From the NCBI RefSeq assembly GCF_007747215.1, contig NZ_CP036273.1:4200322-4264321 (forward strand): DNA of 64,000 nt. The letters run 5' to 3'. How positions within the stretch are numbered: position 1 is the first letter of the stretch; every line of letters begins with the position of its first letter. Made by a program: the position numbers and the translations under genes. This document shows, in pieces, positions 45,041 to 64,000 of this stretch. Origin of the DNA: Urbifossiella limnaea (GTDB taxonomy: Bacteria; Planctomycetota; Planctomycetia; Gemmatales; Gemmataceae). The notes below the pieces were generated by a model. It made no database searches. It was not told the origin of the DNA and was given only the letters and a program-made list of their open reading frames with translations.

Positions 45041-47203
45041 ATGACGGCCGACCCTGCCTTCCGCCTCAGCACGTTCCTCACGCTGGGCCTCGCCTGCGCC
45101 GCCCTCGGCGCCGCCGAGGCCCAACTCCTCCCGGAAGTCGCCGCGTTCGCCACCGCCGTCGTCGTCACTCTCGCCGTCGTGTACCGGCTCGACGGCCGCG
45201 CGGAAGTTCTGAGCCCACAGGCGGCCACGAACCTCGGGCTGGGGCTCGCCCTCGCCGGGGCCGGTTGGGCGGGCGTCCGCATCGTCCGCGAGACCCGCGC
45301 CGGCGACTTCGTCGCCGTCGGCTGGGGTGTGTTCGTCGTCCTCCTGCTGACACCCATCCTGATGGTGCTGTCCGTGTCGTTCGTACTGCGCCGCGACAAG
45401 GACGTGGGCGTCTACTGGTACCTCCACGCCATCGGCCTCGGCGTCGTCGTGCTCGCGGCGGCGATCGCCCGCCGGCCGTGGGAGGTGGCGGCGCTCGTCG
45501 CCTACGCCGCGGCCGCGGTGTGGGGGTTGGCCCGGTTCGCGCTGGCGCGGGGCGGCGCCGCCCCGGCCGCCGGCCGGCGTGCGGGGCTGATGCGGGCCGC
45601 GGGGTGGTTCACGCTCGCGGTCATGGTGGCCACGCCGGTGTTCGCCGTCACCCCGCCGGCGCCGGTGGAGATCGAGAAGTTCGAACTCGCCGCCGCCCGC
45701 ATCGAGGTCGGCTTCTCCCCGGACCAGGGCGTCGACCTGACCCGCACCGGCGAGCTGACCTCGGTGCAGGCGGTCATCTTCCACGTCGACGTGGACGAGA
45801 ACGGCAAGCCGAAGATTGACCTGCCGCAGGAACTGCGGTGGCGCGGCCGGCTGCTGGCGCACTACGCACACGGGTCGTGGCGGCGCGAGGCCATTTTTCG
45901 GATGCCGCAGGTCGTCGACCTGGCCGTTCAGAAGGAAGACTGGACGCCGCCGGACCTCGGACCGGGGGGCTACCGCATCCGCTACACGGTCCCGGCCAGC
46001 CTCCGCTCCGAGTTCCTCGCCGAACCGGTGGTGTGGCGCCCGGGCCGAACGGTGCCGCTGGCGAACGTGTACGAAGGGCAACCGCCGCGGCCGTGGATCC
46101 CACTCGCCGACGGGTCGTTCTTCCGCCAGATCGGCCGGCCCGACCAGCGCCGCACGCTCGAGTACGTGCAGCACACGGCGCCGCTCCCCGACCCCGACCT
46201 GGGCGTCGGCTTTCTCAGGACCGGCACCCTCGACCCGGAGCTGACGAAGAACCCCGTTCCGGCCGTGCGGGCGTTCACGAACCAGCTGCTGCCGCGGCTC
46301 ATCCGCGAGGGGAAACTCTCGGCCGACGCGGGCACGCTGAACCCGGTGAACAACCGCCTGGCCGACGAGAACCACGAGGCGGTGGCGCGGGCCTTCACGG
46401 CGTTCCTGTCGGAGGCGCCGGAGTACACGTACACCCTGAACCTGACACGCCCGCGGCCGGACCTCGACCCCGTCGAGGAGTTTCTGGAGCACTCCAAGAC
46501 CGGGCACTGCGAGCGGTACGCCTCGGCGCTGGTGCTGATGCTGCGGGCGCAGGGCATCCCGGCCGCGCTGGCGGTCGGGTTCAAGGGGCACGAACACCTC
46601 GGCGAGGGGCGGTACGTCATCCCTCAGGATCACGCCCACGCCTGGGCCGTGGCGCTGGTGTCGCGGCCGGACGCCGGCGGCGGCCGCGTCTGGCACTGGC
46701 TCAGCCTCGACCCGAGCCCCGGCGAGGGGATTTCCACGCTGGCGGCCGCCGGCGAGAAGGTGAGCGGCTGGGCGTGGGTGTGGGACCGGCTCCTCGACGC
46801 GACCCCCGAGGAGCGGCTGGAAGCGATCGGCGATCTCGCCTCGAATCCCATCGTTCAAGGCGTCGTGGCGACGATCGCGGTGTTGGCGGCGGCGGCGTGG
46901 GGCGTCCGGCTCCTGCGGCGCGCCCGCGTGGCGGCCGGGGCGCGGAACCCGTGGCTCGACCCGCTGTACGCCGTGCTGGCGCCGCACGGCTTCACCCCGG
47001 CCGCGGACGAGACGCCGCGCGAGTTCGCCGCCCGCGTCTCGGCGGCGCTCGGCGGACACCCGGCCGCCGCGATTCCGCCGGCTTGGGTGGAGCGGTATTA
47101 TGCGCAGCGGTTCGGCGGCGCCACGGTCACGCCCCCGCGCACCGTTGACCTCGACGCCCTGCGAGCCGCCATGACCGAACTTTCCCCGGGTGGAACCCGA
47201 TGA
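45041..47203 (+). CDS. Transglutaminase-like membrane protein (TgpA type)
   Basis: 720 residues. About six membrane segments in the first 205 residues, a large external domain, then the transglutaminase-like core with cysteine in KTGHCERYASALVLM (Cys490), histidine in DHAHAWAVAL (His533) and aspartate in SLDPSPG (Asp557). A last membrane segment (about 605-625) is followed by a C-terminal DUF4129-like stretch (PREFAARVSAAL, VERYYAQRFGG). This is the layout of TgpA, the third partner of the MoxR/DUF58 module. The last four bases overlap the isochorismatase-family gene. Confidence 0.93.
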   Translation: MTADPAFRLSTFLTLGLACAALGAAEAQLLPEVAAFATAVVVTLAVVYRLDGRAEVLSPQAATNLGLGLALAGAGWAGVRIVRETRAGDFVAVGWGVFVVLLLTPILMVLSVSFVLRRDKDVGVYWYLHAIGLGVVVLAAAIARRPWEVAALVAYAAAAVWGLARFALARGGAAPAAGRRAGLMRAAGWFTLAVMVATPVFAVTPPAPVEIEKFELAAARIEVGFSPDQGVDLTRTGELTSVQAVIFHVDVDENGKPKIDLPQELRWRGRLLAHYAHGSWRREAIFRMPQVVDLAVQKEDWTPPDLGPGGYRIRYTVPASLRSEFLAEPVVWRPGRTVPLANVYEGQPPRPWIPLADGSFFRQIGRPDQRRTLEYVQHTAPLPDPDLGVGFLRTGTLDPELTKNPVPAVRAFTNQLLPRLIREGKLSADAGTLNPVNNRLADENHEAVARAFTAFLSEAPEYTYTLNLTRPRPDLDPVEEFLEHSKTGHCERYASALVLMLRAQGIPAALAVGFKGHEHLGEGRYVIPQDHAHAWAVALVSRPDAGGGRVWHWLSLDPSPGEGISTLAAAGEKVSGWAWVWDRLLDATPEERLEAIGDLASNPIVQGVVATIAVLAAAAWGVRLLRRARVAAGARNPWLDPLYAVLAPHGFTPAADETPREFAARVSAALGGHPAAAIPPAWVERYYAQRFGGATVTPPRTVDLDALRAAMTELSPGGTR

Positions 47204-47766
47204 CCAAGACCTCGCGCCGCCTCACGCCCGAGAACTCGACGCTCGTCGTCATCGACGTACAGGACAAGCTCCTGGCGAAGCTGCCGCGCGCGGCCGAGGT
47301 GGTGAAGAACGCCGGCTTCCTGATCGACGCCGCGGTGCTTCTCGACGTCCCGGTCCGGGCCACGGAGCAGTACCCGAAGGGGCTCGGCCCGACGACCGCC
47401 GAGATCGCCCGCCGGCTGCCCGCGCCGGCGGCGACGAAGACGGCGTTCAGCTGCTGCGCGGCCGGCACGTTCCTCGAAGAGTTGGAGATGCTCCAGCGGC
47501 CGAACGTGGTCGTGGTCGGCGCCGAGACGCACGTCTGCGTCCAGCAGACGGCCCTCGACCTCATCGCCGCCGGGTTGCACGTCGTCGTGCCGGCCGACGC
47601 CGTCTGCGCGTGGGGCGACCTGGACCACGCCACGGCGCTGCGGCGGCTCGAATCGGCCGGAGCGATCGTGACGTCGGCCGAGGCGGTCGCGTTCGAGTGG
47701 CTCAAGGACTCGGCGCACCCGACGTTCAAGGCGGTGAGTCAGCTGGTCGTCGCCCGCCGGGGGTGA
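47200..47766 (+). CDS. Isochorismatase-family hydrolase
   Basis: 188 residues. Triad visible: Asp in VVIDVQDKLL (residue 19-20 region), Lys in ATKTAFSCC and Cys in VVGAETHVCVQQTALDL. This matches the YcaC/nicotinamidase-like branch that hydrolyses amides or acts on small acids; the exact substrate is unknown. ATG 47200 overlaps the transglutaminase stop (ATGA), so it belongs to the moxR operon even though the functional link is not obvious. Confidence 0.9.
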   Translation: MTKTSRRLTPENSTLVVIDVQDKLLAKLPRAAEVVKNAGFLIDAAVLLDVPVRATEQYPKGLGPTTAEIARRLPAPAATKTAFSCCAAGTFLEELEMLQRPNVVVVGAETHVCVQQTALDLIAAGLHVVVPADAVCAWGDLDHATALRRLESAGAIVTSAEAVAFEWLKDSAHPTFKAVSQLVVARRG

Positions 47767-47832
47767 GCCCGGGGACGGCCGGGTTCGTAAACTGACGGGA
47801 TCGTTCCCGACACTCCGGACCCTGACCTCCCC

Positions 47833-49011
47833 ATGACGATCCCCGGCCAGCTGAACCCCTCCCCGCGCCTCCTGCTCGGCCCCGGCCCGAGCGACGCCCA
47901 CCCGCGCGTCCTGTCGGTGATGACGACACCGCTGCTGGGCCACCTCGACCCGCAGTTCATCGAGATCATGTCCGAGACGCAGGAGATGCTGCGGCAGGTC
48001 TTCCAGACGAAGAACGCCCTGACGTTCCCCGTGTCCGCGACGGGCACCGCCGGCATGGAGACCTGCCTCGTCAACCTGCTGGAGCCAGGTGACAAGGCCG
48101 TCGTCGGCACGATCGGGTACTTCGGCAACCGCATGGTCGACATCGCCGGCCGCACCGGCGCCGACGTGACCGTGCTGGAACGGCCGTGGGGCCAGGTGTT
48201 CGAGCCGGACATGATCCGCGACGCCGTGAAGCGCGTGAAGCCGAAGGTGCTGGCGCTCGTCCACGCCGAAACGTCCACGGGTGCGATGCAGCCGCTGGAG
48301 GAGATCGGCGCGATCTGCCGCGAGACGGGCACGCTGCTGGTGGCGGACTGCGTCACGTCGCTCGGGTGCATCCCGGTCAAGCCGGACGAGTGGGGCATCG
48401 ACGCGGCGTTCAGTTGCTCGCAGAAGGGGCTGAGCTGCCCGCCGGGGATGGCCCCGGTGACGTTCAGCGAGCGGGCGGTGGCGGCGTTGAAGGCCCGCAA
48501 GACGAAGGTGCAGAGCTGGTACCTGGACCTGACCACGATCATGGGCTACTGGGGCGGCGACCGGGCGTACCACCACACGGCGCCGATCACGATGGTGTAC
48601 GCCATCCGCGAGGGGCTGCGGCTGGTGTTGGAGGAAGGGCTGGAGGCCCGCTACGCCCGCCACGTCCGGAACCACCTGGCGCTGAAGGCCGGGCTGACGG
48701 CGCTGGGCCTGGCGTACACCGCCGACCCGAACCATCAGCTGCCTCAACTCAACGCGGTACGGCTGCCCGACGGCGTGGACGACGCGGCGGGCCGGAAGCG
48801 GCTGCTGACCGAGTTCGGCATCGAGGTCGGCGGCGGCCTCGGCGACCTGAAGGGGAAAGCGTGGCGGATCGGCATCATGGGCCAGAACAGCCGGCCGGGC
48901 TGTGTCTACCAGGTACTCACGGCGGTGGAGCAGGTGCTGAAGGGCTTCGGCGTGAAGGTCGAGCCCGGCGCCGGCGTCGGCGCCGCCGAGCGGGCCTACT
49001 CCGCGGCTTAA
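47833..49011 (+). CDS. PLP-dependent alanine/serine-glyoxylate aminotransferase family
   Basis: 392 residues. Fold-type I class V aminotransferase: LLGPGPSDAHPRVL at the start, VSATGTAGMETCLVNLL, HAETSTGAMQPLEEIG, LLVADCVTSLG, and the PLP lysine in SCSQKGLSCPPG near residue 202. YHHTAPITMVYAIREGL and the final GLGDLKGKAWRIGIMG complete the AGXT-type pattern. It likely transfers an amino group from alanine or serine to glyoxylate. A TAAACT -10-like box lies at 47788-47793. Convergent with the barrel gene, with a terminator between. Confidence 0.92.
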   Translation: MTIPGQLNPSPRLLLGPGPSDAHPRVLSVMTTPLLGHLDPQFIEIMSETQEMLRQVFQTKNALTFPVSATGTAGMETCLVNLLEPGDKAVVGTIGYFGNRMVDIAGRTGADVTVLERPWGQVFEPDMIRDAVKRVKPKVLALVHAETSTGAMQPLEEIGAICRETGTLLVADCVTSLGCIPVKPDEWGIDAAFSCSQKGLSCPPGMAPVTFSERAVAALKARKTKVQSWYLDLTTIMGYWGGDRAYHHTAPITMVYAIREGLRLVLEEGLEARYARHVRNHLALKAGLTALGLAYTADPNHQLPQLNAVRLPDGVDDAAGRKRLLTEFGIEVGGGLGDLKGKAWRIGIMGQNSRPGCVYQVLTAVEQVLKGFGVKVEPGAGVGAAERAYSAA

Positions 49012-49023
49012 GTTGATTCGCGA

Positions 49024-49051
49024 CGGCCCACCCGGCACGCCGGGTGGGCCG
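49024..49051. terminator. Bidirectional terminator hairpin
   Basis: CGGCCCACCCGGC, loop AC, GCCGGGTGGGCCG between the convergent stops at 49011 and 49064. The stem is strong but the T runs are short, so its efficiency is uncertain. Confidence 0.7.
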
Positions 49052-49063
49052 TGTCGCACCCGG

Positions 49064-50053
49064 TCAGAAGCGGATGCCGCTGCTCAGCAGGATGTTCACG
49101 TTCTGCACGTCCCCCTTGAGCGGCGGGATGACGTTGGTCCAGTCGTAGCCGTACTGGCCGGTCAGCCCGCCGAACCACACCCACCCGCCGACCGGCACCT
49201 CGTAGTTCACGTGGCCGCTCAGGTAGAACCCGTGAAACACCGCCTGCCGGCGGGAGTAGCTCTCGGCGGCGTTGTTCGGCACCAGATCGACGTGGCTCGT
49301 ACCCCACCGGCCGCCGACCTCCAGGCCGGTCCGCACGTTCCAGCCCGCCTCCTCGCCGGGGTTGCCCGGCCCCCAGACGAAACAGTCGCGGCCGACGGCG
49401 AAGTTGAACGCCGTCCGGTGCAGCGCCCGGATGCGGCTCGTCGTCAGGATGTCGGCCCGCGGGATGATCTGCCCTGTCAGCTGGTTTGTGCCCGGTGGCT
49501 GGCGAATGAACACGTCGGAGAAGTTCGCCGAGGAGCCGCGGTTGTAGGTGTAGCTGAGGCCCAGGTCGAGGGTCCAGGCGGCGTCGCCTTCGGGGTTGAA
49601 GAACAGCGTCCGTCCGCCGCCGCCGACGATCCAGCCGGTGTGGAGCCGGTCGGTGAACTCGCCGCTCCCGAAAAGCAGGTTCGGACCGGTCTCGGCGTGC
49701 AGTTCGTAGGCCACCTGGCCGTTCCGGCCGAGCGGGCCGCAACAGCCGGGGCCGTCCGTGTACCACGGGCTGCCGTAGGCCCCGGGCGGCAGTGCGCCGG
49801 CCGCCGGGGTGGACGTCATTGCCCCGAGCGAGGCCGCGGGGCCGGGGTCCACCGGCCGTGGCGCGGGGGCCGTCTCCTGCCCACCGGTGGGTAGCACCGG
49901 CGACCCGCCGGAGGGCGGAGGCGCCGGCAGCTTCGCCGGCGTGCTCATGCGGGTGGGCGGTGTGTAGGTTGGGAACCCGTACTGGCCCGCGGCCGGGGCC
50001 GCGGTCGCCGCCGCGGCCAGCACCACCCCGGGAAGCATTCGGGTGATCGTCAT
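49064..50053 (-). CDS. BBP7-like outer-membrane beta-barrel protein
   Basis: 329 residues. Signal peptide (1-23, AAPAAGQ), a proline-rich linker (about 25-95), then amphipathic strands (LHTGWIVGGGGRTLFFN, WTLDLGLSYTYNRG, FYLSGHVNYEVPV, VWFGGLTGQYGYDW) and a final LSSGIRF with the C-terminal phenylalanine of barrel proteins. Two cysteines in PGCCGPLG. This matches the planctomycete BBP7 barrel family in outline. Start at 50053 chosen for the signal. Confidence 0.8.
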   Translation of the reverse strand: MTITRMLPGVVLAAAATAAPAAGQYGFPTYTPPTRMSTPAKLPAPPPSGGSPVLPTGGQETAPAPRPVDPGPAASLGAMTSTPAAGALPPGAYGSPWYTDGPGCCGPLGRNGQVAYELHAETGPNLLFGSGEFTDRLHTGWIVGGGGRTLFFNPEGDAAWTLDLGLSYTYNRGSSANFSDVFIRQPPGTNQLTGQIIPRADILTTSRIRALHRTAFNFAVGRDCFVWGPGNPGEEAGWNVRTGLEVGGRWGTSHVDLVPNNAAESYSRRQAVFHGFYLSGHVNYEVPVGGWVWFGGLTGQYGYDWTNVIPPLKGDVQNVNILLSSGIRF

Positions 50054-50196
50054 GCGCCCCTCGCCGCCGCCGGGGACCCCGAGCGGGCGCAGCGCCCGCC
50101 CGGCCGTCGCCCGGCCTGTTCTGTGGTCTCGTCCTCTAGGATCGGCCGTCGACCGTGCCGACTTTAACACCCCTGCCGGCGGTAGCGGTCGTGAGG

Positions 50197-50226
50197 TTGG
50201 CCCCGGTCGCGCCCCGGGGGTATAAG
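50197..50226 (+). promoter_or_regulatory. Predicted promoter of the unknown gene at 50263
   Basis: TTGGCC (50197-50202), 18-bp spacer, TATAAG (50221-50226). The transcript would begin near 50233, giving a leader of about 30 bases with GAGGCGAG before the ATG. Confidence 0.5.
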
Positions 50227-50262
50227 GAAGCTGGGCAACCCGACCGCCACCGACGAGGCGAG

Positions 50263-51720
50263 ATGAAGCGGATCGAACTACGCGACACGGTTGCGGCCCG
50301 GCGGTTCGTCGCCGAGGGGCTGTGGTTCCAACGTGCGGTGCGGCCGACCGCCGAGCGGGTCCGGGCGGTCCTGGAGTGGGCGATGGAGATCGCCAACGAG
50401 GGCCGGCCGCTCCCGCCGCTCGGGTTCGTCGCCGACGTGGCCCACGTCGCGCTCGTGGCCGACGCCGACCACCGGCCGAAGGAGCCGCTCGCCGTCCCCG
50501 GCTGGCGGCCGGAGCTGGCCCGCCGCTACGAGGATCACGTCCTCGGCCGCCTGTACGCCGACCGCGGCTTCGAGCGCGCCGCCGACGCCGTGCGCGTGCT
50601 GGCGGGGAACGACCGCGTCCGCGGCGTCGCCTTTCTCGTGGACCGCGTCCGCGAGCGGACCGACGTGGGCGGCGTCGACCTGCCGGTGGCCGTCCTGCGC
50701 AACTTACTCACGTCGAACGCCGATGAAGTCATGTCCCGGGCGTGGGACGACCTCTCCCGCGACGGCCCCTCGAAACTCACCGTGGAATTGCTCGACGAAC
50801 TGGCGTCCGGCGGGCTGCGGCACCCGGACGTGCTGCTGGCGACGGACATCGCCGCGCTCGAAGACCGCTCCGCCCTCGGCGGCGAGGAACAGCGGATCGC
50901 GCTGGAGCAGATTCGTACCCAAACCGACGCGCTGCTGGAGCCGCTGCACGGCACCCGCGTCCGCCCGCTGCCGGGCCGGCGGGAGGTGCCGACGCGCATC
51001 CTCGACGAGGACCAGTACCCAGTTGGCGGCTACACGTCGATCAGCCCGCGCGGGTCGATCGAGAGCCTGCTCCACTCGCAGCTGGCGTACATGGAGGACG
51101 GCCGCGGCCGCGACCCGGACCTGTTCGACGTGAAGTTCGCGCGCGACGAGCTCTTCTACTACTCCCGCGACGAGAACCAGTTCCTCCGCCGCCGGCGGGC
51201 GTTCGTGTTCGTACTGCTGCCCGACCTCGTGACCTCGCCGCAGCACTCGGCCCGGTTCAAAGACCCCGAACTCCCGGTGCAGCGGATCGTGCTGATCCTC
51301 TCCCTGCTGCAAGCCGTGGTGTGGAAGCTGGACGAGTGGCTGAGCACGGACGCGATCCGGTTCGAGGTGATGTTCGTCCAGGACGCCGGGCGGAAGCCGA
51401 TGGCCGAGGAGGCGACGTTGTGCGAATTCCTCCTCCGCCCGAACATCGCCCGCGGCGTCGCGGCAGTGCGGCACGTGGCCGACCGCGCCGAAGCGGGCAA
51501 GGCACTCGCCGAGCTGGCCCGCACGGCACAGGTTCATGCGCTCGTGGTCGGGACGAGGAAGACCGAGCTGGTGGCGGACGCGGCACTCGTGACCGGGCTG
51601 GTCGTGGGCGGCCCGGTTCCCACGCTGCGGGCCGATCCCGCCCCCGTGTCGCTGGAGGCGGCCACGCCCTTCGAGCACTGGCAGGAGGCGCTGCGGCGGG
51701 TGTTGCAATTGTGGGTTTGA
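50263..51720 (+). CDS. Soluble protein of unknown function
   Basis: 485 residues, no signal peptide. The first 300 residues are helical and charged. The last 190 alternate hydrophobic strands and helices (RAFVFVLLPDLVTSP, IVLILSLLQAVVWKLDEWL, IRFEVMFVQDAG, VHALVVGTRKTEL), which looks like a vWA-type or Rossmann-type alpha/beta domain without a recognisable MIDAS motif. DVKFARDELFYYSRDENQF is a striking conserved-looking stretch. ATG at 50263 follows GAGGCGAG. It heads a co-directional run of ABC-type genes. I do not recognise the family. Confidence 0.7.
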   Translation: MKRIELRDTVAARRFVAEGLWFQRAVRPTAERVRAVLEWAMEIANEGRPLPPLGFVADVAHVALVADADHRPKEPLAVPGWRPELARRYEDHVLGRLYADRGFERAADAVRVLAGNDRVRGVAFLVDRVRERTDVGGVDLPVAVLRNLLTSNADEVMSRAWDDLSRDGPSKLTVELLDELASGGLRHPDVLLATDIAALEDRSALGGEEQRIALEQIRTQTDALLEPLHGTRVRPLPGRREVPTRILDEDQYPVGGYTSISPRGSIESLLHSQLAYMEDGRGRDPDLFDVKFARDELFYYSRDENQFLRRRRAFVFVLLPDLVTSPQHSARFKDPELPVQRIVLILSLLQAVVWKLDEWLSTDAIRFEVMFVQDAGRKPMAEEATLCEFLLRPNIARGVAAVRHVADRAEAGKALAELARTAQVHALVVGTRKTELVADAALVTGLVVGGPVPTLRADPAPVSLEAATPFEHWQEALRRVLQLWV

Positions 51721-51795: not shown

Positions 51796-53031
51796 ATGTT
51801 TGAATGGATCAGCAACCCCGGCCTACTGTTCGGCGGGGTGGTACTCGCCGCCGTGCAGTTCGTCGCCGCCCTCCCCTGGCTGTGGGCCATCGACCCGCGC
51901 GGGTTCGAGCGCGCCACCCGCTCCCCGCGCGCCCTCGGCACCATCGTCGCCGGCGTTATCGGCGCGGGCATCGCGGTCGCCGCCTACGCCGGCTACAAGA
52001 GCGACGCCAACAGCCTGGAGTGGAACGGGCGGTACGTCTACGGCGCGGTGCTCCACCTGCAACTGCTCATCGACCTGTTCATCCTCATGCCGAACCTGCT
52101 GGTGCTGGTGTGGCCCAAGGGCGGGGCCGTGGCCCTTGCCGCGTACCGCGAGGGGCTCCGCCAGCCGATGTCGTGGCTGATCGTCGTCGTGGCCGTGGTG
52201 GCGACGTGGGTGTCGGTGTTCATCCCGTACTTCACGTTCGGCGACGACTTCAAGATGATGAAGCAGATCGGCTTCGACGTGGTCATGCTGTCGGCCGCGC
52301 TGTTCGGCGTGCTCGCGGCCAGCATGTCAATCAGCGAGGAGATCGAGGGCCGCACGGCCGTCACGCTGATGAGCAAGCCGGTGAACCGTCGGCAGTTCCT
52401 GGTCGGGAAGTTCCTCGGCATCCTCATGGCCTGCCTGGCCCTGTCGCTCGTCATCGGCTGGAACCTGACGTTCGCCCTGCGGGCCCAGCCGGAGTTCGAC
52501 AAGATCAACGAGGTGATCGACCCGATGCCCCAGCAGGCCGAGGCGTCGTTCGTACCGTTCTTTACCGCGGGCGTGCCCGGAACGGCGCCGAAGGTCGTCG
52601 CCCGCGGGGCGGGGTTGTGGTTCGCCGACTCCTTCGCCCACTCCCTCGGCATCGCCCTCGGCTTCGGCCAGGTGATGATTCTGGTCGCCATCGCCTCCGC
52701 CCTGGCCACCCGGCTGCCGTTCGTCATCAACATCGTGCTCTGCCTCGTCATCTACTGCCTGGGCCACCTCGCGCCGGTGGTCGTGCAGGTGACGCAGAGC
52801 GGCGGCGGCGGCACCGCGATGGGGCTGGTCGGGTTCGTCGGGCAGCTGTTCGACGTGCTGTTGCCGGCGCTCGAGTTCTTCAACATGGGGCCGGCGATCA
52901 TCCGCGAGAGCCCGCTCGACCTGTGGCAGTTCGCCGGCTACGTCGCCACCGTGTTCGGCTACTCGGTCATCTACACCGCCATCGCCCTCCTCGTGGGCCT
53001 GCTGTTGTTCGAGGACCGCGACCTGGCGTAG
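51796..53031 (+). CDS. ABC-2 family permease, NosY/GldF-like, without adjacent ATPase
   Basis: 411 residues with about nine membrane segments. The core SISEEIEGRTAVTLMSKPVNRRQFLVGKF near residue 180 is the standard loop of ABC-2 permeases (quoted in part: EEIEGRT and KPVNRRQ). A long extra-membrane stretch (about 225-275) lies between segments. No intact ATPase lies on either side: the next gene is an exporter with degenerate motifs. Candidate -10 TATAAC at 51747-51752. It probably borrows an ATPase coded elsewhere. Confidence 0.88.
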   Translation: MFEWISNPGLLFGGVVLAAVQFVAALPWLWAIDPRGFERATRSPRALGTIVAGVIGAGIAVAAYAGYKSDANSLEWNGRYVYGAVLHLQLLIDLFILMPNLLVLVWPKGGAVALAAYREGLRQPMSWLIVVVAVVATWVSVFIPYFTFGDDFKMMKQIGFDVVMLSAALFGVLAASMSISEEIEGRTAVTLMSKPVNRRQFLVGKFLGILMACLALSLVIGWNLTFALRAQPEFDKINEVIDPMPQQAEASFVPFFTAGVPGTAPKVVARGAGLWFADSFAHSLGIALGFGQVMILVAIASALATRLPFVINIVLCLVIYCLGHLAPVVVQVTQSGGGGTAMGLVGFVGQLFDVLLPALEFFNMGPAIIRESPLDLWQFAGYVATVFGYSVIYTAIALLVGLLLFEDRDLA

Positions 53032-53187: not shown

Positions 53188-55362
53188 GTGGACACCTCGG
53201 CGTTCAACCGGCTGCGCGACGACTTCGTGAAATCCCCCCGCGCACGCGTCGCGGCCGCGGTCGGCACCGTCGCGGCCGCCTTCGCGTACGTCGCGCTCCT
53301 CGTCCTGCTCTACCTGTTCGTCGACCTTCTGGTCTGGAAGGGGGAAATCCCCTCCTACGCCGACCTCCGCCCCGCCCGCAAGGCCGCCTTCGCCGGCGAA
53401 TGGATGAACCGCGCCGACGCGGACCGCGCCGACGCGGTCAAGCGTCTCGGCCTGCCGGACGCGAGCGCCGCCCGCGTCGCGGCCGCCGAGTTGAAGCGCG
53501 CCCCCACGCCGACCGAATGGGAGTGGCGGTGGCGGGCCGGGGCGTACCTCGCGCTCCGCGACCGGGTGAATCAGGAAGCCGCGGACACGTACCTGCCGGA
53601 GGCCCCCGCCGCGGACACACCCGACCCCGCCACTCGGGCCGAACTCGGGTTGCTCAGCCTCGTCGTCCGCGAGCGTGACCGGTGGACCGGCCGCCTCGCC
53701 GGCTGGCTGGCCCGGTGGAACGGCTGGGCGTGGAGGCCGGGTGCCGACGGTTCGGCCAATGATACGTACCTCGCCGGCCTGTTCGTGTTCGGGTTCGGGC
53801 TGGCGCTGGTTCGCGGCGTGCTACTGAACGCCGTCGCTTATGCGGCCGCGCAGGTGACAATCGAAGCGGTGACCAGGCTGCGGCGCGCACTGTACTTCCA
53901 CATCTTCCGTCTCGGGTCGCTGGCCGTGCGCACGTCCGGCCCCGCGGAAGCCGCCGAACTCGTGACCGGTCGGGTGGAGTCGGCCCGCGAGGCGGTCGAG
54001 TCGTCGCTGACGGCCCCGTACCGCTTCCCACTACTGTTCGTGCTGCTGCTCGGGCTCATCCTGAGCATCAACTTCTGGCTCGCCGTCAGTTGCCTGCTGT
54101 TCGCCCTGCTGGTCTGGCTGATCGGCGGGCAGGTGGCGGCGTACTTCCGCCGCGAGGCCCGCGTCGGCAGCCGGCAGTCGGACGCCGCCCTGTCCCTGCT
54201 CCGCGAGAGCATGGGGCTCATGCGGCTGGTGAAGTGCTACCAGATGGACCGGTTCAACCAGTCGCGGGTGGAGCGGCAGATCGCCCAGGCCGGCCGCGCG
54301 GGCTGGCGCCGCTACCGCGGCGAGACGTTGGCGCGGCCGATGCTCGTGGCCGTCGCCCTCATCGCCGGCGTGTGCCTCCTCTACCTCGCGGCGTGGGCCG
54401 TCCTCGCCGGCGACCTCACGACGCCCGGCCTGGCGGTGATGGCGGTCGCGCTGCTGTCGCTGGCGTGGCCGGTGGCCGGGTGGGTGGACGCCCGCCGCAA
54501 GCGCGCCCGGGGTGAGGAGGCGGCCGCGGCGATCTTCGAGTTCCTCGACCGCCGGGGGGAAGCCGCCGAGGCCGCCGACGCCGAGTTCCTCCCCGCCCTG
54601 ACCGGCCGCATCGAGTTCCGCGGCGTCACGCTCACAGAGGCCGGCACCGGAAGGAAACTCCTCGACGACGTGAGTTTCGCCGTGCCCGCCGGCAGCAAGG
54701 TGGCCGTCGTCGGCTCCGACCCCACGGAGACGCACGCCCTGGTGTACCTGCTGCCGCGGTTCCTCGACCCCACGACCGGCGAGGTGCGGGTCGAGGACCG
54801 GAACATCAGGTGGGTGACGCACGAGTCGCTGCGGGCGCAGGTCGCCGTCGTGATGCAGGACGACCTCGTGTTCACCGACACGGTGGCCAATAACATCAAG
54901 TGCGGCGACCCCGGGTACACGCTGCCGCAGGTCATCGAGGCGGCGAAGCTGGCCCACGCCCACCAGTTCGTGGAACGGCTGCCGCAGGGGTACGAGACGG
55001 TGATCGGCGGCGACGGGATGAGCCTCACCCCGGGCCAGCGGTTCCGCGTCGCCCTGGCCCGGGCGCTGCTCCGCGACCCGAACGTGCTCGTGCTCGAGGA
55101 GCCGTTCGGCCCCGTGGACGAGGACACGCTCGCCCTGCTGGACGACACGCTGGAGCGCGTCGCGCCGAACCGCACGATCTTCTTCCTGGCCCACCGCCTC
55201 TCCACGCTGCGTGCCGTTCACCGCGTGTTCCTGCTGAGGCACGGCAAGCTCGAAGCGACCGGCAGCCACCGCGACCTGTGGCAGAACAACGACCAGTACC
55301 GCCGCCTCCAGGTGCTCGCCGACGCGACCGGCGAGACGGCGGCACTGTCCGAGACGAGTTGA
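53188..55362 (+). CDS. ABC-exporter-like membrane protein with degenerate nucleotide-binding motifs
   Basis: 724 residues, GTG start at 53188. One N-terminal membrane segment and a large helical insertion (about 60-185) precede a six-helix exporter core and a C-terminal ABC domain (about 475-715). The expected Walker A GxxGxGKS reads GSDPTETH and lacks the lysine; the signature reads LTPGQ rather than LSGGQ; Walker B reads LVLEEPFGPVDE with Glu for Asp. The Q-loop VVMQDDLVF and H-loop FFLAHRLST persist. ATP hydrolysis in the usual way is unlikely. It may form a mixed pair with another exporter or act as a scaffold. 13 bases before the phosphatase gene. Confidence 0.88.
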   Translation: MDTSAFNRLRDDFVKSPRARVAAAVGTVAAAFAYVALLVLLYLFVDLLVWKGEIPSYADLRPARKAAFAGEWMNRADADRADAVKRLGLPDASAARVAAAELKRAPTPTEWEWRWRAGAYLALRDRVNQEAADTYLPEAPAADTPDPATRAELGLLSLVVRERDRWTGRLAGWLARWNGWAWRPGADGSANDTYLAGLFVFGFGLALVRGVLLNAVAYAAAQVTIEAVTRLRRALYFHIFRLGSLAVRTSGPAEAAELVTGRVESAREAVESSLTAPYRFPLLFVLLLGLILSINFWLAVSCLLFALLVWLIGGQVAAYFRREARVGSRQSDAALSLLRESMGLMRLVKCYQMDRFNQSRVERQIAQAGRAGWRRYRGETLARPMLVAVALIAGVCLLYLAAWAVLAGDLTTPGLAVMAVALLSLAWPVAGWVDARRKRARGEEAAAAIFEFLDRRGEAAEAADAEFLPALTGRIEFRGVTLTEAGTGRKLLDDVSFAVPAGSKVAVVGSDPTETHALVYLLPRFLDPTTGEVRVEDRNIRWVTHESLRAQVAVVMQDDLVFTDTVANNIKCGDPGYTLPQVIEAAKLAHAHQFVERLPQGYETVIGGDGMSLTPGQRFRVALARALLRDPNVLVLEEPFGPVDEDTLALLDDTLERVAPNRTIFFLAHRLSTLRAVHRVFLLRHGKLEATGSHRDLWQNNDQYRRLQVLADATGETAALSETS

Positions 55363-55375
55363 GCGAGGGACCGCC

Positions 55376-56197
55376 ATGCGTTCGCCACTGGACATGGGCC
55401 GCGAGGTGTCGGCCGCGCTCGACGCCGCCGACCTCGCCGCCGACCTCATCCGCCGCGAGTACCGCACGTTCGTAGCCGTCCCCGACGCCCCGGTGTCGAT
55501 CAGCACGCACGTCGACAAGGCCTCGCAGGACGTGATTCTGGAGTTCCTGCACGCGCAGTTCCCGGCCGACGCCCTGTGTGCCGAGGAGAGCACCGCCGGG
55601 CTGGCGAAGGTGGCGCACCGGGGGCAGCGCGTGTGGGTCGTGGACCCCATCGACGGCACCCGCGGGTTTGCCAAGAAGACCGGCCAGTTCTCGGTGATGA
55701 TCGGCCTGTTGATCGACGGCGAACCCGTGGTCGGCGTTGTGAGCGAGCCGGCGCAGGACCGTACGACGTACGCGTGGGTCGGCGGCGGCTGCTGGACGAT
55801 GGTGGCGGACGGCACCTCGGTGCGCTGCCACGTGAGCAGGCGGGCGCTACGCGACGCGGTGCTGACGCAGAGTTGGTCGAAGCCGGGACAGCCGAGCCGG
55901 CCGGTGCGGGCGCTGGCGCCGGCGGGTGTGGTCGAAACCTACTCCGGCGGCGTGAAGCTGGCCCAGGTCGCTCGGGGCGACGCCGACGTGTACGCGAACG
56001 TGTACGAGACGTTCTTCGACTGGGACATCTGCGCCGGCCACGTGCTCGTGACCGAGGCCGGCGGCCGCGTCACGGATTTGAGCGGCGGCCCGGTGCACTA
56101 CGCCGCCGACCGCTTCGCCCAGACCCGCGGCCTGCTGGCGACGAACGGCCTGTTCCACGACGAGGCCGTGCGGGCGCTGGCGGCCGTGCCGGAATGA
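55376..56197 (+). CDS. Inositol monophosphatase-family (FIG) phosphatase
   Basis: 273 residues. Metal-binding motifs: CAEES near residue 66, VDPIDGTRGFAKKTGQF near residue 87, and WDICAGHVLVTEAGG near residue 218. GFAKKTGQF after DPIDGT is the pattern of 3'(2'),5'-bisphosphate nucleotidases (CysQ/SAL1) rather than of histidinol phosphatase. It may thus recycle PAP from sulfate assimilation, but substrate is inferred. The last gene of the run that begins at 50263; its stop lies four bases from the convergent PQQ gene. Confidence 0.85.
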   Translation: MRSPLDMGREVSAALDAADLAADLIRREYRTFVAVPDAPVSISTHVDKASQDVILEFLHAQFPADALCAEESTAGLAKVAHRGQRVWVVDPIDGTRGFAKKTGQFSVMIGLLIDGEPVVGVVSEPAQDRTTYAWVGGGCWTMVADGTSVRCHVSRRALRDAVLTQSWSKPGQPSRPVRALAPAGVVETYSGGVKLAQVARGDADVYANVYETFFDWDICAGHVLVTEAGGRVTDLSGGPVHYAADRFAQTRGLLATNGLFHDEAVRALAAVPE

Positions 56198-58905: not shown

Positions 58906-60899
58906 CGTTTCCCCTCGGCGGCCGTCAGGATGCTCCGGGCTTTTTCCCGGGCCGCGACGACCGCCGTGTCCGTCTCGTCGTCGTAAAGTTCGACCAACTC
59001 GCGGGCCGTGGCCCGCACCGCGATCCACTTCACCGTCTCGCTGCCGGCCTGGGCCTCGGTCTGGGTTTGCCCGAGTTCGGCGAGCTTCTGCGACACGAGT
59101 TTCTGTCGCTCGGCCAGACCGCCGTCCGCGGCGCCCCTCGGGATGGCCGCCCGCTGCTGCGACGCGAGAAGGAACCAGGTATTGAGGTCCGGCTCCTTCT
59201 CGGCCAGCCCGATGGCCGCGTCCCACCACCGGGCCGCCTTCTCCCTGTCGCCGAAGGCTTCGAGCCGCAGCGCCCGCACGGCCAGCGATTCGGGGCTGTC
59301 CTTGTCGAACGGCGTGGGCAGCTCGAACCGCCGGTGCTCGGCGATCTTCTTGTGTAGCTCCGGGAGGAGCTTCCGGGCCGCCTCGATGTCCTTGAGCCGC
59401 TTGTCGGCCACCCAGCCCCAGCGGGCCTTGTTCAGCGGCTCGTCGTCGAAGGTGTACGGCAGCTTGGCCTCGGCGGGGAATCTACCCCGGACCTTCGTCC
59501 AGTACTCGGTCGCCACGGGCAGCTGGCCGTCCTTCTCGGCCTTGATGGCCGCCATCGTCGCGGCGTAGGCGTCCCCGTCGTCGCCGTCGCCGGGGTTGTC
59601 GCGGAGGTTCGCCTTGCGGAAGCGGTTGGCGAAGATCCCCTCTCGCTTCTCGACCCAGCCGGCCCGGAAGAGCGCGGCCGCGGTGTCGGTCCGTTCGCCG
59701 GGCGTGTCGCCGTGAGGCTTCAAGTAGGCGGTGGCGGCCTCGATGCGGGCGTCGGGCGTGGCCTCGCCGCGGCCCTTCTGCGCGGCCAGCCGCTCGACCG
59801 GGGCGTACAGCGCGTCGGCCGACGGCGGCCGCATCAGGAAATACGCCCCGGTAGCGAGCCCACCAAGGGCCACCAGAATGGCGGCGGCGTGGAGCCACTT
59901 CTGCTGGAGCAGCGGCACCGCCTTCGCCTTCCGTTTCTTCTTCGTCTTCCCCTTCAGCGCGCGGGCGGCCTCGCGGTCCTCCTCCGTGATCGGCGCCGCC
60001 TCGGCGCCGCGCGGGCGGTCGATCTTGCGGGCGTTGGCGGCCTCGAGGCCGGCGCTCTTGCGGGCCGTGGCATCGTCCTCGATCTCGGCCAGCATCCGCC
60101 CCACCCACGCGGCGTCGATCGGCCGCTGGTCCTTGTCCTTCTCCAGCAGTTGCAGGATCAGCGCCTCGAACTTCGGCGGCAGGTCTTGCAACAGCTTGCC
60201 GAGCCGCGGCGGCTTCTCGTGGACGTGTTTGAGGAACATGTCCACGGTCGTGTCCGCGGTGAACGGCTTGCGGCCGGTCAGGAGCTCGAAGAAGACGACG
60301 CCGAGTGAGTACAGGTCGGACTTGGCGGTGAGGTTGCGGTCGCCCTTGCACTGCTCCGGCGACATGTACGCGGCCGTGCCGATCGTGCTGTTCATGCCGG
60401 TCAGGGCGGTCACGTCCTGGTCCTTGGCGATGCCGAAGTCGGTGAGCTTCAGCACGCCGTCCGTGGTCACCATCAGGTTCGACGGCTTCAGGTCGCGGTG
60501 GATGATCCCCTTCTCGTGCGCGTGCTGGAGGGCCAGGCACAGGTGCTTGCCGTAGGTGACGACCTCCTCCCACCCCAGCCGGCCGCGGCGGGCCAGGACG
60601 CGGTCGAGCGGCTCGCCGTCGACGAACTCCATGGCGATGAACGGCGTCTTCTTGTACGTGCCGGTGGCGAGCAGGCGGACGATGTGCGGGTGCCGGAGTT
60701 GCTTGAGGATCGCCGACTCGCGCTCGAAGCGGGCCATCGCGCCTTCGTTGCCGAGCAGGCCGAGGGCGACGACCTTGAGGGCGACCTGCCGAACCTGGCC
60801 CTCGCTCTTCTGGTAGCGGGCCATGTAGACGGTGCCCATGGCACCGCTGCCGAGCTCCCGCTCGATGGTGAACGGGCCGATCTGCTGCCCGATCAGCAT
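58902..60899 (-). CDS. Transmembrane Ser/Thr protein kinase (PknB type)
   Basis: 665 residues. Kinase domain about 8-280: glycine loop GSGAMGTVY, lysine in VALKVV, catalytic IIHRDLKPSNLM near residue 136, LTDFGIAKD near residue 156, and AAYMSPEQ. A lysine/arginine patch precedes one membrane segment (about 335-357). The 300-residue outer part is helical with TPR-like packing (EKAARWWDAAIGLAEKEP) and shows no sensor family I know. RBS GGGGAGG before ATG 60899; -10 TACAAT at 60930-60935. Upstream of hemL with a four-base overlap. Confidence 0.94.
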   Translation of the reverse strand: MLIGQQIGPFTIERELGSGAMGTVYMARYQKSEGQVRQVALKVVALGLLGNEGAMARFERESAILKQLRHPHIVRLLATGTYKKTPFIAMEFVDGEPLDRVLARRGRLGWEEVVTYGKHLCLALQHAHEKGIIHRDLKPSNLMVTTDGVLKLTDFGIAKDQDVTALTGMNSTIGTAAYMSPEQCKGDRNLTAKSDLYSLGVVFFELLTGRKPFTADTTVDMFLKHVHEKPPRLGKLLQDLPPKFEALILQLLEKDKDQRPIDAAWVGRMLAEIEDDATARKSAGLEAANARKIDRPRGAEAAPITEEDREAARALKGKTKKKRKAKAVPLLQQKWLHAAAILVALGGLATGAYFLMRPPSADALYAPVERLAAQKGRGEATPDARIEAATAYLKPHGDTPGERTDTAAALFRAGWVEKREGIFANRFRKANLRDNPGDGDDGDAYAATMAAIKAEKDGQLPVATEYWTKVRGRFPAEAKLPYTFDDEPLNKARWGWVADKRLKDIEAARKLLPELHKKIAEHRRFELPTPFDKDSPESLAVRALRLEAFGDREKAARWWDAAIGLAEKEPDLNTWFLLASQQRAAIPRGAADGGLAERQKLVSQKLAELGQTQTEAQAGSETVKWIAVRATARELVELYDDETDTAVVAAREKARSILTAAEGKR

Positions 60900-61090
60900 G
60901 GTTCCTCCCCGCGACCGTGGTTCCCGGGCATTGTACCTCACACGGCCGGGGTTTCGCCCCCGATTCCGGCCGCGCCGCCAACGCCGGTTGCGGCCGGAAC
61001 GTAACGCCCGGTAACGGGTTGCCCCCGCCGTCGCACCGGCCGCGCCGGTCGGCTAGAATGGAGGCGTCCGTTCCGCCGCGGAGTCCCGGC

Positions 61091-64000
61091 ATGGCCACGG
61101 TGATTGAGAAGCCCGACCCGGCCGCGAAGTTCGCCACGAAGGTGGACGAGCAGCTGGCCGAGGCCACCAGCCGCATCCGCGGCCACGACCTGGCCCTCGG
61201 CGGCCTCTTCGTCGCCGGCTTGGTGCTGGGCTACGCCGCCGCGATGATGCTCCTCGACCGCTACCTCGTGGTTGCCGAATGGCTGCGCCAGCTGTCGCTG
61301 CTGGCGTTCGTCGGCGTGGTCGGCTACGCGGCCTACCGGATGCTCGTCCGCCCGTTGCGGGCGCGGGTCAATCCGATGTACGCGGCCGTCGTCGTGGAGC
61401 GGACCATCGACGACGCCAAGAACAGCCTCGTGGGGTACGTCGAGGCGCAAGAGCGCGGCGACGTTCACCCGGCGGTGAAGGCCGCGATGGGCGCCCGCGC
61501 CGCCAAGTCGGTGGACGACGCCGACGTGAACCGGGCCGTGGACCACCGCGGCCTGCTCTACGCCGGCGGCGGCGTCATCGCCCTGTTCCTGACGCTCGTC
61601 GTGCTGTTCTTCGTGTTCCGCCCGACGCAGTTCCAGTCGCTACTCGGCCGCACGTTCGCGCCGTTCTCGTCCGCCACCATCGCCAGCCGCACGACCGTGT
61701 TCCTGGTCGAGCCGCAGGGCGGCGACGTGACCGTCACGTCGGGCCAGTCGCTGACGATCAGGGCGGAGGTGAGCGGCCGGCTTCCCAAGCCCGACGCGGC
61801 CGACAAGGTGCGGCTGCTCGTCCGGTACAACCCCGCCGACCCGGCCTACGACGAACTGCCGATGGAGCCCGGCGAGACGAGCCGGGAGTGGTTCGTGCAG
61901 GTGCGGCCGGAGCAACTGCGGACGGGGGCGTGGTACAAGGTCGCGGCCGGCGACGGCGAGACGGCCGAGCACCGCGTGACCGTCCGCACCGCCCCGCTGT
62001 TCACCGACTTCGAGGTCGAGTACCTGTTTCCCGCGTACACCCGCCGGCCGGACGAGAAGTCGACCGACCCGCACCTCATGGCCGTCCGCAATACCAAGGT
62101 CAGCGTGGTGGCGAAGGCCAACCGCCCGGTGCGCGACGGCCGGGCCGTGTTCGACCCCGCGGGTCAGCCCGTGGTCGCCGGCAAGGTCGTCCCCGGCCGG
62201 CAGGACGCGCTGCGGTTCGACTTCCTCCTCACGACGCCCGGCAGCTACCGCCTCACGTTTAACGCCGCCGACGGCGAGCGGAGCCCGGAGTCGATGCCGT
62301 TCGGCATCAAGCTCGACGAGGACCGCCCGCCGCTGGTCTCGATCCAGGTGCCGCAGCCGGACGACATCCAGCTACCGGCGAACGGCCTCCTCGCCATCGA
62401 CGGCGGCGCCGGCGACGACTACGGCCTCGACAAGCTGACTCTGAAGCTGAAGCTGGCCGACGTCGCGGCGCGGCCGCTGGCCGACCGGCCGTACCTCGGC
62501 GGCAAGTCATTCCGCCGCGACGCCGACGGCACGTACCCGGTCAACCTCGCGTACAAGGACTCGGTCGAACTCGGCAAGCTGACCGACCCCGCCGGCGGCA
62601 AGGTCGAGCTGAAGGAGGGGATGGTTCTCGAATACTGGTTGGAGGCGACCGACAACCGCACGAAGCCGGGCAGCACCGGCCCCGAGCCCGACCCGCAGGT
62701 GGGGAAGAGCGCGGTGAAGCGGGTGCGTCTGCTGCCGCCGCTGACGCCCCCCGAGCAGAAGGACCAAGAAGCCCGCCGCGACCAGCGGAAGCAGGACGAG
62801 AAGCAGCACGCCGACAACCAGCAGAAGCAACTGGACAACGAGCCGCGGCCGCAGCCGAACGCGCCCCCGAAGGCCGACCCGCCGCAGGACGGCATGGGGA
62901 ACCCCATGCCGATGCCGCAGGACGGCATGGGCAAGCAGCAGGACGGGACGGGGAACCCGATGCCGATGGACGGCATGGGGAAGAAGCAAGACGGCATGCC
63001 CATGCCGATGGGGAACGACGGCACGGCCAAGAAGCAGGACGGCATGCCGATGCCGATGGGGAACGACGGCACGGGCAAGAAGCAGGACGGCATGCCGATG
63101 GGCAGCGACGGCACGGGCATGAAGCAGGACGGCATGGGGAACCCGAACCCGCCGAAGTCGCCGGAGCAGAAGAACCCACAAGACAAGGGAATCGCGGGCG
63201 GCATGACGGACCCCAAAATGCCGCCCACGGGGATGAACGACGGCACCCCGATGCCGATGAGCAAGGCCGACATGGGGACGCCCGGCAGCAACAACGGGAT
63301 GCCGCAGCAGGCGCCGATGCCGTCCGACCCCGGCAGCAAGAACGTGCAGGAGCAGGCCAACAAGGTTCAGGACCAGCTCAACCAGGAGAAGTCCGGCGGC
63401 GGTACGCCCAAGGCGGCGCCCACGGCCAACGACGGGGAGCGGACGCCACCCGCCGATCAGAAGTCGAACCCGCCGATGGGCGGAATGCCGCCCGAGGCCC
63501 AGCCGAAGACCGACGGCGGCATGGGGGCCAGCGAGCCGCGCACGGACGGCAAGGCGGAGCAGCCGCCGGAGCCGTCGCAGGCGAAGGCCGGGCCGACGGG
63601 CGACATGCCGCCGATGCCGAACAAGGGGAGCAACCCGCAGCCGAGCGAGACCCGCCGCGAGCCGCTCGGCGGCGACCCCGGCGCGGAGCGCGAGCCGCAG
63701 AAGGGCGGCGACCCGATGCAGAAGGGGATGTCGCAGACCAAGAACGACCCGACCGCCGGCGGCGAGCCGAAGGCCGCATCACAGCAGAAGTCCGACGACG
63801 TGATGGGCAAGGCGTCGCAGCAGCCGACTCCTGCGGACAACGCCGCGAAGGCCAAGACGGCGCCGCCGTCGAACGACCGCGGCGGCGAACGCGACCCGAT
63901 GCAGAAGGGTTCCCCCCAGTCGGAGCCGCAGGGCGGCGGCGAGCCGAAGATGCAGCAGCCCGAGCAACCCGGGGCGGTCCGCCCGATGCCGAAGGAGGGC
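61091..64000 (+). CDS. DUF4175-like large membrane protein, C-terminus beyond window
   Basis: At least 970 residues; still open at the right edge. Two membrane-segment groups: about 39-88 (LGGLFVAGLVLGYAAAMMLL and the next) and about 155-177. A beta-rich region follows (about 205-520; GQSLTIRAEVSGRLP, FEVEYLFPAYTRRP, DDYGLDKLTLKLKLAD), similar to DUF4175 proteins. From about residue 555 the chain is disordered, rich in Gln, Lys, Asp, Gly, Pro and Met, with tandem repeats. A TAGAAT box (61054-61059) precedes the ATG by 31 bases. Confidence 0.85.
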   Translation, partial: MATVIEKPDPAAKFATKVDEQLAEATSRIRGHDLALGGLFVAGLVLGYAAAMMLLDRYLVVAEWLRQLSLLAFVGVVGYAAYRMLVRPLRARVNPMYAAVVVERTIDDAKNSLVGYVEAQERGDVHPAVKAAMGARAAKSVDDADVNRAVDHRGLLYAGGGVIALFLTLVVLFFVFRPTQFQSLLGRTFAPFSSATIASRTTVFLVEPQGGDVTVTSGQSLTIRAEVSGRLPKPDAADKVRLLVRYNPADPAYDELPMEPGETSREWFVQVRPEQLRTGAWYKVAAGDGETAEHRVTVRTAPLFTDFEVEYLFPAYTRRPDEKSTDPHLMAVRNTKVSVVAKANRPVRDGRAVFDPAGQPVVAGKVVPGRQDALRFDFLLTTPGSYRLTFNAADGERSPESMPFGIKLDEDRPPLVSIQVPQPDDIQLPANGLLAIDGGAGDDYGLDKLTLKLKLADVAARPLADRPYLGGKSFRRDADGTYPVNLAYKDSVELGKLTDPAGGKVELKEGMVLEYWLEATDNRTKPGSTGPEPDPQVGKSAVKRVRLLPPLTPPEQKDQEARRDQRKQDEKQHADNQQKQLDNEPRPQPNAPPKADPPQDGMGNPMPMPQDGMGKQQDGTGNPMPMDGMGKKQDGMPMPMGNDGTAKKQDGMPMPMGNDGTGKKQDGMPMGSDGTGMKQDGMGNPNPPKSPEQKNPQDKGIAGGMTDPKMPPTGMNDGTPMPMSKADMGTPGSNNGMPQQAPMPSDPGSKNVQEQANKVQDQLNQEKSGGGTPKAAPTANDGERTPPADQKSNPPMGGMPPEAQPKTDGGMGASEPRTDGKAEQPPEPSQAKAGPTGDMPPMPNKGSNPQPSETRREPLGGDPGAEREPQKGGDPMQKGMSQTKNDPTAGGEPKAASQQKSDDVMGKASQQPTPADNAAKAKTAPPSNDRGGERDPMQKGSPQSEPQGGGEPKMQQPEQPGAVRPMPKEG
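62981..63118 (+). repeat. Tandem coding repeat, 48-bp units
   Basis: Units 62981-63028 and 63029-63076 are nearly identical 16-codon repeats (KKQDGMPMPMGNDGTG); 63077-63118 is a 42-bp version lacking one MP pair, followed by a partial unit. They expand a Met/Pro/Asp/Gly-rich disordered segment of the large membrane protein. Confidence 0.85.

Follow-up and report, generated by a model that had tools for sequence, protein, structure and literature searches.

The window analysed here, a stretch of 64,000 nucleotides from a genome of 7.8 Mb assembled as a single contig, carries a gene for an exporter-like protein, termed pABC (pseudo-ABC exporter), lying between the genes for an ABC-2 type permease and a CysQ-like protein (Table 1). 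The pABC frame runs uninterrupted from a GTG start to its stop codon. Pfam places an ABC_membrane domain at residues 188-428 and an ABC_tran domain at residues 492-640 (60.0 and 60.9 bits, with gathering cut-offs of 28 and 25), and the protein thus joins a transmembrane domain (TMD) and a nucleotide-binding domain (NBD) in one chain, as exporters do. Among characterised families, the sequence is closest to MsbA and the ABCB-type exporters. pABC shares the half-transporter layout of MsbA and other type I (type IV fold) exporters, and MsbA_lipidA is its best NCBIfam match, although the 271.6 bits obtained fall below the cut-off of 602 bits that defines the MsbA lipid A exporter (TIGR02203). Unlike MsbA-type exporters, the pABC family has degenerate nucleotide-contacting motifs throughout and a permease neighbour.

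Table 1. Genes and sequence features around pABC; positions are those of the window
Feature	Position	Strand	Description	Basis
Long frame	47098-49059	-	No Pfam or NCBIfam match	
Long frame	49064-50170	-	No Pfam or NCBIfam match	
vWA protein	50155-51720	+	'FtsH ternary system' type (ivWA, ivWA-helical_N); just upstream of the permease	Pfam
ABC-2 type permease	51796-53031	+	ABC2_membrane_2, 411 aa, C-terminus FEDRDLA; proposed partner	Pfam, alignment, adjacency
pABC	53188-55362	+	MsbA-like half-transporter, TMD and degenerate NBD, 724 aa	ORF, Pfam, tree, omega
TM1-TM2 stretch	53338-53757	+	Residues about 51-190; also in the canonical paralogue	Hydropathy; omega 0.136
Walker A	54712-54735	+	Degenerate, GSDPTETH, residues 509-516	Motif reading, family alignment
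Q-loop Gln	54856-54858	+	Residue 557; retained here, family-variable	Motif alignment
Signature	55024-55038	+	Altered, LTPGQ, residues 613-617	Motif reading, family alignment
Walker B end	55096-55101	+	Glu-Glu, residues 637-638; Asp to Glu, catalytic Glu retained	Family alignment
H-loop His	55192-55194	+	Residue 669; retained here, family-variable	Motif alignment
CysQ/inositol-monophosphatase-like gene	55376-56197	+	3' neighbour in much of Gemmatales	Pfam
Long frame	59482-61176	-	No Pfam or NCBIfam match	

What defines an ABC exporter is a cycle driven by ATP, in which ATP at Walker A and closure on the signature of the partner drive dimerisation of the NBDs. The window protein reads GSDPTETH where a functional ATPase has GxxGxGK[ST], and LTPGQ where LSGGQ or a close variant would be found; Walker B ends in VLEE, and the catalytic Glu that follows Walker B (E638) is present. 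The first-pass annotation had already read these motifs in an intact frame, with the Q- and H-loops retained, and the reading is confirmed, Q557 and H669 included. Because both Walker A and the signature are changed in one chain, normal cycling of pABC is very unlikely. Mutation of Walker A is reported to block ABCB1 (PMC7756269).

Homologues of pABC at E <= 1e-60 occur in 69 of 95 Gemmataceae genomes. A single fragment without an NBD (G029) was set aside, and none of the remaining 68 homologues, all with a readable Walker A, carries GxxGxGK[ST]. A canonical motif in most homologues had been named beforehand as the sign of a single damaged copy, an interpretation that this count rejects. At the level of the order, 79 of 102 genomes matched at 1e-100, a figure that includes two genomes (G035 and G068) matching at the place of a canonical paralogue. 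Members outside Gemmatales were located by profile searches and are grouped here in families under analysis labels (f2, f3 and so on). The first sample of the phylum yielded pABC in 27 of 27 f2 genomes and in the one f6 genome, and the profile search had no match in eight f3, one f4 and one f5 genomes; a match recorded for f4 (G451) turned out to be canonical. Twenty further loci sampled from the class comprised 18 degenerate members (from f6, f103, f104, f109, f112 and one f3 genome) and two canonical ones. The class count, 144 of 198 genomes, also takes in canonical matches such as G451 and G493. Outside the class, all nine matches that were read are canonical (L115, L116, L118, L158-L161, L165 and L166), and four loci found outside the phylum (L045-L048), where a single contig scan with peptide patterns was run, have a canonical Walker A as well. 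The pABC family is ancient and spread over the class Planctomycetia.

What has been lost across the family is the glycine-rich loop together with the Ser/Thr. Among 94 degenerate rows from the class, not one retains both glycines of the P-loop or the combination of Lys and Ser/Thr, and Lys alone is kept in 35; the 16 canonical rows used for comparison all have a full Walker A. The commonest form in Gemmataceae approximates Gx[DN]xxEKHALVYLI, in which Lys is often retained and the loop glycines and Ser/Thr are gone, and EKH is frequent at this place across Gemmatales. The lysine, to which the first-pass annotation gave most weight, is not the key loss: it is replaced by Thr in the window, is missing as well from the 86% relative of the window protein and from some others, reads Leu in a close same-genus pair, is absent from all 27 f2 rows, and requires at least 12 changes on the tree. 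Nor are the Q- and H-loops a retained family trait, since Gln is present in 41 and His in 38 of the 94 rows. The A-loop aromatic survives in two rows. The second residue of the signature is Ser in 12, Thr in 30 and another residue in 52, and the second Gly of that motif is kept in 58. Walker B departs from this pattern, with E637 in 85 rows and the catalytic E638 in 91, and the Glu-Glu-Pro of this motif is almost invariant in the family despite the losses elsewhere in the ATP site.

The degenerate rows form a single clade in two trees built without the motif columns (76 degenerate and 16 canonical rows, and 93 and 26 rows, respectively), with a support of 100 in both that is SH-aLRT and not bootstrap. 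Some pABC lineages are very fast, with branches of more than 3 in the first tree, and one of them (L229), present in that tree, was dropped from the second for its long branch. Eight loci (L227-L229 and L233-L237, in genomes G056, G058, G059, G069, G071, G081, G082 and G086) have a fast-evolving pABC that has lost nearly all NBD motifs and still lies behind the permease. At two others (L071 and L076, in genomes G001 and G006) the pABC frame is broken within the NBD, by assembly error or by local decay.

Pairwise omega (Nei-Gojobori) was 0.03-0.14 in 14 of 15 pairs, with 0.142 for the window protein and its homologue L013; the outlying pair, window and L014, gave 0.304 at a dS of 0.69. The low values reject a reading of pABC as a pseudogene. 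When the comparison with L013 was divided by part, omega was 0.094 for the NBD and 0.172 for TM2-6, no part of the window protein being under stronger constraint than the degenerate NBD. The motif changes of the window protein are more than chance, because changes of this class have become fixed family-wide under purifying selection. This result, with the absence of canonical homologues and the low omega of the NBD, supports the earlier suggestion that the protein has been selected to work without normal hydrolysis and is not in decay. In the 16 canonical rows, conservation was 0.84 at ATP-contacting positions and 0.55 on average over the NBD (Mann-Whitney p 1.6e-5), whereas the corresponding values were 0.49 and 0.59 in degenerate Gemmatales rows and 0.56 and 0.58 in f2. 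The contact sites are thus not specially conserved in the degenerate rows, which indicates that the NBD is retained for a purpose outside normal ATP chemistry.

Hydropathy places TM1 at about residues 31-49 and TM2 at about 190-216 of pABC, with some 140 residues between them that, by analogy with exporters, are probably periplasmic. The size is close to that of the insertion of about 125 residues that had been described as unusual. The stretch is not unusual, however, since the canonical paralogue encoded in this genome has about 100 residues at this place and two other canonical rows (L118 and L160) are also long, and it was rejected as a special mark of pABC. A whole-protein AlphaFold model built with five sequences was poor (pLDDT 48.7) and was not used for fold searches. 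The model of the NBD alone (pLDDT 74.2, pTM 0.75) matched the NBDs of HlyB, TmrA, Sav1866 and MsbA, with a best Foldseek E of 1.0e-24 and a best Z of 24.1, to the HlyB NBD (3b5j; 2.9 A over 232 residues). Such a match is expected, because canonical relatives are present in the alignment behind the model, and it shows that the pABC sequence is compatible with the ABC NBD fold, and nothing beyond compatibility.

The permease encoded 5' of pABC is a new lead from this analysis. It gave one match per genome in 96 of 102 Gemmatales genomes and was found in all 39 genomes of the class that the phylum sample included. Adjacency was counted without three fragments (L074, L080 and L081) and without 6 + 7 loci having less than 600 nt upstream; on this basis the permease gene immediately precedes pABC, in the same orientation, in 45 of 68 Gemmatales loci, in 26 of 28 f2/f6 loci and in 17 of 17 loci of the second class sample. 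The same position was occupied by the permease in 0 of 49 canonical loci in the first count and 0 of 2 in the second sample (0 of 51 together). Where the strict Gemmatales search had missed pABC, a still more eroded homologue followed the permease in 8 of the 14 neighbourhoods fetched around that gene. Six sampled loci from f3, f4 and f5 have the permease without an adjacent pABC, and the permease therefore does not always need pABC. Rates of pABC and permease showed a partial correlation of 0.26 (28 of 1000 permutations were as high), and those of pABC and the canonical paralogue one of 0.03 (361 of 1000); removal of nine fast genomes narrowed the contrast to 0.59 for the permease against 0.50 for the paralogue.

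A hidden ABC-2 ATPase beside the permease was considered and rejected. A scan with a loose signature found no linked canonical ABC ATPase in the fetched flanks of 74 of 80 permease loci, and the ABC frames present in the flanks of the other six, the window among them, lie kilobases away. Two of these frames (L257 and L258) have an ABC_tran domain, and we take them to be of the MacB/LolD type. Genes next to the permease in outgroup genomes were also ruled out as the missing ATPase, as they encode a metallophosphoesterase (four loci) or a Band 7 protein (two loci). The metallophosphoesterase is 3' of the permease, and pABC is lacking, in all four loci from outside the class that were tested with Pfam.

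That a protein with a lost ATP-binding site is kept beside the permease gene throughout the class suggests a function for which it no longer requires ATP of its own. With somewhat better than even probability, pABC is a class-wide pseudo-ABC exporter, devoid of canonical ATP binding, that assists the upstream permease as its scaffold, gate or regulatory subunit. The protein keeps the whole exporter architecture, with its TMD and an ABC-type NBD, and very probably does not bind ATP in the normal manner, having lost the glycine-rich loop and the Mg-binding Ser/Thr along with the A-loop aromatic and part of the signature. Its NBDs would most likely hold the dimer together, or contact partners, independently of nucleotide; a nucleotide-free role as scaffold, gate or regulator is suggested by the conserved NBD frame and the linkage to the permease. 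We infer that pABC does not hydrolyse ATP, that it forms a homodimer and that it physically associates with the permease; any substrate would likewise be putative. Several observations count against such a role, namely the Lys kept in 35 of 94 rows, the 23 of 68 Gemmatales loci in which the permease is non-adjacent, the two broken frames and the very fast lineages. The conservation of E637 and of the catalytic Glu is also more than a fully dead site needs, and may reflect either a structural function close to the D-loop or a remnant nucleotide site.

A heterodimer was weighed against this scaffold or regulatory role. The genome of the window encodes a canonical MsbA-like paralogue (C1:148307-150400) that is not linked to pABC. 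Of 102 Gemmatales genomes, 97 encode this paralogue, in almost every case with a single match, and as a matched control it had an intact GxxGxGK[ST] in 40 of 40 sampled genomes, the most eroded pABC lineages included. The search for a partner proposed in the first-pass annotation thus yielded a widespread candidate, albeit an unlinked one. pABC would then be the degenerate half and the paralogue the other half of a transporter such as TAP or TM287/288, a pairing favoured by the almost universal single paralogue and by the long TM1-TM2 loops of both half-transporters. We consider it unlikely, given that the paralogue lies elsewhere in the genome, that canonical loci are without the permease neighbour (0/49), and that the partial rate correlation is 0.03, a value that nonetheless rises to 0.50 when the fast genomes are excluded. 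Since Walker A and the signature have both degenerated in pABC, such a heterodimer would be left with a defective half at each of its composite sites. A partner of the same family encoded nearby, as in heterodimeric exporters with one degenerate site, is missing from the pABC locus, and Pfam revealed no second exporter beside pABC in the window.

An active ATPase with an unorthodox site, in which E-K-H replaces G-K-S/T and Glu-Glu stands at Walker B, would account for the catalytic Glu in 91 and E637 in 85 of 94 rows, for the 35 rows with Lys and for the common EKH of Gemmatales; it is rendered improbable by the missing Lys of the window and of all 27 f2 rows, by contact sites that are not specially conserved, by the absence of both loop glycines from every row and by the loss of the A-loop aromatic in 92 of 94. 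CFTR is an ABC protein that became a channel, and pABC might similarly be an ATP-independent flippase or channel for lipids or glycolipids that does not require the permease. Constraint on the TMD (omega about 0.17 for TM2-6) and the kinship with MsbA and ABCB-type exporters agree with this possibility, to which we give a similarly low probability, as the recurrent permease neighbour and the strong constraint on the NBD would be left unexplained. Stepwise motif loss, the fast lineages, the two broken frames and the f3-f5 loci sampled without an adjacent pABC could all be expected of a decaying relic heading for loss. This last explanation is very improbable, in view of an omega of 0.03-0.14 in 14 of 15 pairs, of an NBD that is the most constrained part in the window pair, and of a single clade distributed across the class.

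Loss of catalytic motifs under selection is known from TAP, TM287/288, TmrAB, MRP1, CFTR and Pdr5, and in this respect pABC is alike. In those proteins one site stays canonical, whereas the single pABC chain departs from the canonical form in Walker A and in the signature. Even Pdr5, which shows some of the largest deviations, is described as having them at one site only, with Lys to Cys in Walker A, Glu to Asn in Walker B, His to Tyr in the H-loop and a signature of LNVEQ (PMC7756269). With both motifs altered, the pABC chain would be expected to spoil both composite sites of a dimer, whose composition is itself a prediction.

A model for the proposed scaffold, gate or regulatory subunit is SUR1 of the KATP channel, an exporter-type ABC protein that regulates another membrane protein; SUR still responds to nucleotide, and homology to pABC is claimed at the superfamily level only. 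If the proposal is true, pABC would be a natural pseudo-transporter that discarded the ATP site and yet preserved the body of an exporter and the fold of the NBD for as long as the class has existed. It would allow the function of an NBD without nucleotide to be tested, as well as the way in which ABC proteins become regulators, and it points to a conserved permease as a concrete candidate partner in bacteria with unusual envelopes. More tentatively, and with a probability clearly below even, the orphan ABC-2 permease and an exporter with a nucleotide-free NBD module may form a class-wide, two-subunit ABC-type membrane machine that has no dedicated ATPase. Literature searches, covering mostly papers outside subscription journals, brought up no planctomycete family like pABC and no group of exporters in which all members have lost Walker A, and the words transporter, ABC and permease are absent from the main text of the P. 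limnophila essential-gene paper (PMC10632474).

A role in defence was rejected for pABC, for which PADLOC gave a single weak match (mad3) and no match for four neighbours. The CysQ-like gene is probably a co-transcribed bystander. The flanks of the permease-pABC pair differ by lineage and include genes for CysQ-like proteins, NAD kinase, acylphosphatase and HD_4 proteins, several of them small enzymes of phosphate metabolism. The vWA protein is also found beside the permease in four other loci (L042, L043, L044 and L049), and sequences similar to the three long unassigned frames of Table 1 occur in L042 and/or L044. Outside the class, many of the loci L313-L332 have a conserved frame after the permease, and in the one locus tested (L313) a parB gene lies upstream of it.
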